18,146 nt of DNA from Candidatus Hydrogenedentes bacterium CG07_land_8_20_14_0_80_42_17. Its GTDB lineage: Bacteria > UBA8481. Positions 11,227 to 12,934 of this stretch are shown one piece after another (the stretch's first letter is position 1; each line of letters starts with the position of its first letter). The stretch is taken from the NCBI GenBank assembly GCA_002780065.1, contig PEWQ01000079.1, positions 1-18,146 on the forward strand, read 5' to 3'. The notes beneath the pieces were generated by a model. The model saw only the letters and a program-made list of their open reading frames with translations, did no database searches and was not told where the DNA came from. A program made the position numbers and the translations under genes.

Positions 11227-11250
11227 TTGGGCTTTGTAATTTATTTTTTT

Positions 11251-12675
11251 ATGATTAAAAAGTCGATTCTTATTTTTTGCGCTGTTTCTCTTTCTTTATT
11301 GCTTCTTGCATCAGGAAGACTTTATTCGCTTGACGATGAAACAAATTATCTCGTCACACGCTCTATTTGCGAATACGGAAGAATAGATATCTCTCCACAA
11401 ATGGAAAAACCAATTAATGTTTCTGCCGGACGTAGTGGAAAGCTGTACTCCTATTATGCTCCGGGCACTTCATTCTTTGGAATCCCTTTTTATTTTGCCG
11501 GAAAACTTGCGTCCGCTTTCTCTGGAATCGGAGACATTTACATAACCAGAGCTTTTTTCTCATTGCAAGGGAGCGTATGGGGCGGGCTGTGCGCGGCAAT
11601 ACTCTTTATAATAATTACCAAACTCGGCTATGATGAAAAAACGGCAGTGGCAATCTCTCTAATCAATTCTTTTGCTACTTATTCATTCGCTTTATCGCAC
11701 ACAATAATTTCTAATTTTCCTGTCGGTGTGCTTTATCTATTAGCATGGAGCACTATTTTTGAAAACGAAAAAATATTTCGTAAAGGACTTGCATCAGGCA
11801 TAGCTCTATCGCTTGCTTTTTTATACAGATATGACAGCGCATTGTTTTGGCCTATTCTTCTTATTGGAAGGCCTCGCAGAGCATCAGGAATAATTTTAGG
11901 ACTAATTCCAGGAATAGTTTTAGGTGGGGTTTACAATTTTGCGAGGTTTGGATCCGTATTAGATACCGGCGCTCCGGATATGCAAAATATGTTTGCCGGT
12001 AATTTTGGGGAAGGCTTCTTAGGACTCACTATTCATCCGAGCCGAGGAATATTATGGTATTCGCCGTTAACTGTTTTAGGATTGTTTGGTCTTATACTAT
12101 TGAAAAAGAAATTCGGGAAATTTATGTTAATTCCATTCATAATTGGAATTCTTCATATCCTAATCGTATCTAGCCATTCAATCTGGAATGGAGGTGCATG
12201 CTGGGGGCCAAGGCATCTCGGTTCGATTGTTCCAATGCTGAGCATTGGCTTAATTCCATTCATAAAGGTAAGAAAAAAATGGATAAAGAATCTTGGAGTG
12301 GTCTCAGCAATTTTAATTCAATTATATGGAACGGTAGTTGCTACAGATTCATGGAATGATCTTCTTTGGGATTACGGAATCAATTATGAGGTGTCTTGGT
12401 CAACGGTAAAATACAATCCATGGTACGGTCAATTCGAATTACTAAAGAGAGTTAATTTCCAACGCTTGCCGGCAGAGTATCAAAGAAGCAAAAAAATAAT
12501 TCCAGTTGGCGACACTGCTCCTAACCAAATCATGCGTAAGAGCATCGACCAATGGTCAGTCTATGCATGGAAGATGGGAATAAATTCTAAAATTATTATT
12601 TTGTTTTTAGTGATGCAAATCGCGATTACTTTATTTTTTTGGAAAAGAGTTAATACCCGGACTTATGCAAGTTGA
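11251..12675 (+). CDS. ArnT/GT39-like polytopic membrane glycosyltransferase
   Basis: About 474 residues with ten or more membrane helices. The first outside loop carries SLDDETNYLVTRSICEYG, matching the acidic catalytic loop of GT-C enzymes of the ArnT/PMT type, which move a sugar from a polyprenyl phosphate carrier. Further family-like segments are LYSYYAPGTSFFGIPFYF and, near residue 310, SIWNGGACWGPRHLG. A soluble-looking tail follows the last loops, then one C-terminal helix. The start at ATG 11251 is preferred over a TTG at 11227, but there is no ribosome site. The last codons (Arg-Thr-Tyr-Ala-Ser-stop) lie inside the left arm of the palindromic element at 12657-12787, so the original C-terminus may have been different. 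Confidence 0.8.
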   Translation: MIKKSILIFCAVSLSLLLLASGRLYSLDDETNYLVTRSICEYGRIDISPQMEKPINVSAGRSGKLYSYYAPGTSFFGIPFYFAGKLASAFSGIGDIYITRAFFSLQGSVWGGLCAAILFIIITKLGYDEKTAVAISLINSFATYSFALSHTIISNFPVGVLYLLAWSTIFENEKIFRKGLASGIALSLAFLYRYDSALFWPILLIGRPRRASGIILGLIPGIVLGGVYNFARFGSVLDTGAPDMQNMFAGNFGEGFLGLTIHPSRGILWYSPLTVLGLFGLILLKKKFGKFMLIPFIIGILHILIVSSHSIWNGGACWGPRHLGSIVPMLSIGLIPFIKVRKKWIKNLGVVSAILIQLYGTVVATDSWNDLLWDYGINYEVSWSTVKYNPWYGQFELLKRVNFQRLPAEYQRSKKIIPVGDTAPNQIMRKSIDQWSVYAWKMGINSKIIILFLVMQIAITLFFWKRVNTRTYAS

Positions 12676-12787
12676 TGATTTACCTCGGAGAACAGTAGAG
12701 TAGGCGCGGGACGGACAAGTTGAAGCGTCCGTCGCCGCGCCTACTCTACTGATAAATGAAAGTTTTCGGCGACTTGCATGACTCCGG
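12657..12787. repeat. 131-bp GC-rich palindromic element (MITE-like)
   Basis: The outer arms are imperfect inverted repeats: CCGGACTTATGCAAGT (12657-12672) against the reverse complement of ACTTGCATGACTCCGG (12772-12787), 14 of 16 matching. Inside them is a near-perfect long hairpin (12693-12751). The left arm overlaps the last codons and stop of the glycosyltransferase gene. Base composition is clearly richer in G+C than the flanks. No coding sequence is supported. No target-site duplication was identified. Confidence 0.7.
12693..12751. repeat. Long inner hairpin of the palindromic element
   Basis: The arms 12693-12716 and 12727-12751 are perfectly complementary except for one extra base in the right arm. 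The loop is AAGTTGAAGC (12717-12726). The stem is 24 base pairs, much longer than an ordinary terminator, and no T-run follows on either strand. Confidence 0.9.
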
Positions 12788-12904
12788 TTAACACTTAACA
12801 AAAGAACGGGGAGGCCGGCAGAATCAGCATGCGTAGCTAGCAGACCTGTAGGCACGCACGCGAGGCGCCTGTGCCTCCAAAGCGAGCGCCTTGAATCCAT
12901 TGGT
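12788..12904. other. GC-rich non-coding stretch with competing stems
   Basis: No credible gene is seen here. Several alternative pairings are possible: CGAGGCGC (12861-12868) with GCGCCTTG (12886-12893), AGGCAC (12850-12855) with GTGCCT (12871-12876), and GGAGGC (12810-12815) with GCCTCC (12873-12878). Together with the preceding palindrome it forms a block unlike the AT-rich surroundings. Confidence 0.45.
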
Positions 12905-12905
12905 T

Positions 12906-12934
12906 GCGATACATCCTGTATCGCTTTTAATTTT
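12906..12934 (+). terminator. Rho-independent terminator
   Basis: A stem GCGATACA/TGTATCGC with a three-base loop is followed by TTTTAATTTT on the plus strand. It would end transcripts coming from the glycosyltransferase operon or from the GC-rich block. The reverse strand has no T-run after the stem. Confidence 0.65.

Follow-up and report, generated by a model that had tools for sequence, protein, structure and literature searches.

The stretch of DNA analysed here (the window, 18,146 nucleotides) contains a membrane glycosyltransferase-like gene that faces a convergent tRNA-Pro gene, and a palindromic element of exactly 131 bp lies at the end of the former (Table 1). The outer arms of the element are paired in the predicted fold, and 24 pairs with a single bulge form the inner stem (12693-12716 with 12727-12751). 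The predicted folding energy of the element as DNA was -40.6 kcal/mol, compared with -16.3 in shuffles (z -9.35), and as RNA it was -76.3 compared with -35.6 (z -10.9); in both cases, 0/200 shuffles equalled the element. Arm matching and folding thus confirmed the palindrome, the 14/16 outer repeats and the one-bulge 24-bp hairpin of the original prediction. The composition was also predicted to differ from the flanks. This was true against the gene to the left (GC 0.53 versus 0.3-0.4). On the right, however, the DNA as far as the tRNA-Pro gene is as GC-rich as the element. All but one of the six frames of the window element contain stop codons, and the element has no gene of its own.

Table 1. 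Features at the end of the glycosyltransferase-like gene (positions in the window).
Feature	Position	Strand	Remarks
Membrane glycosyltransferase-like gene	11227..12675	+	LA_3751/LA_3752 family, E 7.3e-10, below the NCBIfam cut-off
Left target-site duplication copy, TTAATAC	12650..12656	.	6/7 to 12788-12794; 7 bp is the family rule
Complete element (very probable MITE), 131 bp	12657..12787	.	Both ends match the dispersed family end CCGGASTCRTGCAAGTCG
Left terminal inverted repeat	12657..12672	+	14/16 to right repeat
TGA stop now used by the glycosyltransferase-like gene, within the left arm	12673..12675	+	
Inner GC-rich hairpin: 24 bp, one bulge, 10-nt loop	12693..12751	.	
Right terminal inverted repeat	12772..12787	-	14/16 to left repeat
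Right target-site duplication copy, TTAACAC	12788..12794	.	6/7 to left copy
Presumed original TAA stop, displaced by insertion	12796..12798	+	Flanks joined in silico

The reading frame of the glycosyltransferase-like gene extends 19 bases into the left arm, which confirmed that this arm holds the last codons and the TGA of the gene. When the element and one duplication copy were removed in silico, the joined flanks read GTT AAY ACT TAA, giving a protein of 477 aa that ends in WKRVNT, whereas the present predicted protein has 482 aa and ends in WKRVNTRTYAS. From the joined flanks, we infer that the ancestral stop was TAA. The element probably supplies the last five residues (RTYAS) and the stop, ahead of the old TAA. 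The C-terminus would therefore have been rewritten as originally proposed, by five residues and a new TGA, but the effect is mild. A homologue in a genome of the same order (G001) is 49-50% identical and ends at a similar distance. As its own tail is unrelated, the alignment of C-termini does not decide for or against the ancestral stop. A search with the glycosyltransferase brought up no named close relative. Between the element and the tRNA-Pro gene, at 12858-12885, lies another dispersed repeat (GCGAGGCGCCTGTGCCTCC...), distinct from the element, with dozens of matches in the same genome.

The ends of the element are dispersed in its own genome (G000). Allowing up to 3 mismatches, we counted 39 occurrences of the 21-nt end in 2.39 Mb, and the reversed control gave 0. 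A whole-genome search with the element returned 33 matches, mainly of the terminal ~20 bp. We extracted and aligned 53 family junctions. Their flanks are unrelated, and the common part is the flank followed by CCGGASTCRTGCAAGTCG, after which come several interior types; ACCACGGAGACACAGAG motifs and TTTGCAATTTCCAA arrays are found in many of them. Since the interiors vary, family membership rests on the ends. From 12657, the left arm is identical at 27/27 positions to a copy at G000:C159:3981, and the right arm, 36 bp long, agrees with copies at C150 and C99 in 34/36 positions. Four complete copies of 52-131 bp were found in this genome. The exact 21-mer was detected in no other genome of an 84,980-species collection, from which records very near this genome may be omitted, and the one literature library searched gave no paper on the CACAGAGACACAGAG-type internal motif. 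The internal motifs are partly common to the same-order genome, in a different arrangement. A virus-borne origin was rejected, the four viral exact 18-mer matches being without family context and read as chance; so was a plasmid origin, for which no match was found.

Target-site duplications accompany these ends. The duplication in the window has one mismatch (6/7), and other copies in the genome have TTAATAA (7/7, at C140) and TTAAAA (6/6, at C166); the complete copy C207 has none. The target consensus of the aligned flanks is TTAWTAA. G001 contains a related element of ~277 bp in about 20 copies, and its end, CGACTTGCAGGAGTCCGG, is likewise related. Six of these copies have perfect 7-bp duplications (TAAAGGA, TGACAAG, TTATCCG, TTGTTCA, TGAGTAA and TTCAACG), one has an 8-bp duplication and two have 6-bp duplications. 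The number of 7-bp duplications in G001, in a table that counts mirrored rows of some elements, was far above that in shuffled flanks, and the excess was gone at 9 and 10 bp.

The two arms of the window element are different end subtypes (GATGATTTACC and GCCGAAAACTTTCATTTA), each with other copies, as if a recombination junction had joined arms from two different family elements. However, unlike ends are also found in the complete copies C207 and C166, and the 6/7 duplication points to a joint insertion of the two present ends. A recombination junction is therefore unlikely. Searches with the outer arm, as the original prediction had proposed, found many copies, but the inner 24-bp stem was detected in the window copy alone. 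The near-perfect pairing of this stem, compared with 14/16 at the ends, suggests that the hairpin arose or was corrected later, and we infer that it is a copy-specific feature. Speculatively, template switching could have produced it.

A very stable fold between convergent genes might also be a vertically inherited regulatory hairpin of the glycosyltransferase gene, acting as a terminator or as a 3' stabiliser of its mRNA. We give this almost no credence, since the arms recur at unrelated loci, the element has no Rfam match above the gathering score, and no T-run follows the stem, which excluded it as an intrinsic terminator. The sole terminator-like site lies downstream, at 12906-12933. As this likely terminator is beyond the element, transcripts of the gene probably carry the hairpin in their 3' UTR. 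A regulatory hairpin as the origin of the element is refuted by the dispersed copies and target duplications, with which an RNA role acquired later would be compatible.

The element is short and without coding capacity, shares terminal inverted repeats with its family, is flanked by a target-site duplication, and has multiple dispersed copies. On the strength of this inverted-ended family and of the related element with target duplications in G001, the palindrome is very probably a MITE with 16-18-bp terminal inverted repeats and 7-bp duplications, which was mobilised in trans and landed at the stop of the gene. This agrees with the original prediction of a non-autonomous mobile palindrome at the gene end. 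Because the inverted ends are combined with fixed-length target duplications, the enzyme is presumed to be of the DDE type. Such a transposase would act in trans on the ends CCGGAGTCATGCAAGTCG, which are 16-18 bp long, and the element would insert at a 7-bp site rich in AT (consensus TTAWTAA), duplicating it. Here, the site would have been TTAAYAC, one base upstream of the TAA of the glycosyltransferase-like gene, and the left arm would then supply RTYAS and TGA to the gene.

An autonomous element with the family ends was found in neither G000 nor G001, both of which are fragmented drafts. In these two genomes, the DDE_Tnp_1 genes lack family ends, and searches for ISNCY_1, IS982-type and ISL3 transposases gave no match. 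The transposase at C127 was rejected as a partner because it has no matching ends. Two ends 2.9 kb apart at C159 enclose only housekeeping genes, and the copy at C203 holds only a decayed IS91-like fragment, identified by eye. At this last locus (L145, 1574-2020), a MITE end is followed by the transposase fragment, beyond which the sequence is GC-rich and unrelated; a nested insertion or an assembly chimera may explain this.

The original prediction had also named a BIME-like repeat, in which two inverted REP units are spread by a RAYT (Y1) transposase. The element is indeed palindromic, intergenic and multi-copy, and both genomes have Y1_Tnp genes. However, perfect 7-bp target duplications are not expected with REP/RAYT, the two Y1_Tnp genes that we examined for repeats are flanked by different inverted repeats, and the family ends are found at none of the Y1 loci. 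We therefore dropped this part of the prediction, and consider such an origin highly improbable. As a separate observation, one Y1/RAYT-like gene (L232, G000:C131) is flanked by inverted GGGGTCAGGCTTGAACTTTTTTACTTTTT at 1008-1041 and 1899-1932, and GGGGTCAGGCTTGAACTTTTTTACTTTTT also adjoins two MITE insertions (L153 and L053).

Bacterial MITEs in general, including RUP, Correia/NEMIS and ERIC, are reviewed in PMC2229807, as are Rickettsia palindromic elements (RPE), stem-loop elements of 105-146 bp. The present family resembles RUP, Correia/NEMIS and ERIC in its size (below about 300 bp), terminal inverted repeats, target duplications, lack of a gene of its own, many intergenic copies and occasional ORF fusion. 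It differs from them in its ends, which are CCGG... and not TA, and in its 7-bp duplication, and none of the other lineages searched yielded its end sequence. RPEs occur within genes, in frame. The present element is likewise a stem-loop able to contribute codons to genes, but its family lies at stop codons, and the window copy adds five codons only. With REP/BIME and RAYT, the family shares inverted palindromic units between genes, and it differs from them in its target duplications and in the other repeats carried by the RAYT-like genes examined in this genome.

Family junctions are concentrated at stop codons. In 22/53 cases, the junction is no more than 10 bp from the end of an ORF of at least 90 codons, compared with 4% of random intergenic sites, and in 18/53 the entire stop codon falls in the last 7 bp, which is the duplicated target. 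The expectation was 3.6% when a background of intergenic sites only was weighted by the target motif (p ~2e-13, taking junctions as independent, with both sides counted for a few elements). These statistics concern ORFs rather than curated genes and a 201-kb background, with contig ends over-represented among the copies. In G001, such a stop is found no more than 10 bp away from 8 of 37 junctions. Part of this concentration must come from selection against damage elsewhere, but the null already includes intergenic confinement and the target motif. It is conceivable, though we hold it only tentatively, that the transposase of the family actively seeks gene ends with the stop inside the 7-bp target, a preference common to two families of one order. 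On this reading, a stop codon within the target would make insertions harmless.

The MITE reading accounts for the palindrome and, probably, for much of the assembly fragmentation of this genome. Many draft contigs (about 20 contig starts) are interrupted within MITEs that carry CACAGAGACACGGAG and TTTGCAATTTCCAA arrays. The reading also adds a MITE family from a lineage that has been little sampled, and the copies of this family are natural cases of protein tails made by transposon insertion. Tn7 and group IIC introns have comparable safe-harbour strategies. If targeting, and not selection alone, accounts for the concentration at gene ends, this family would have an unusual strategy of this kind, at the stop codon itself.
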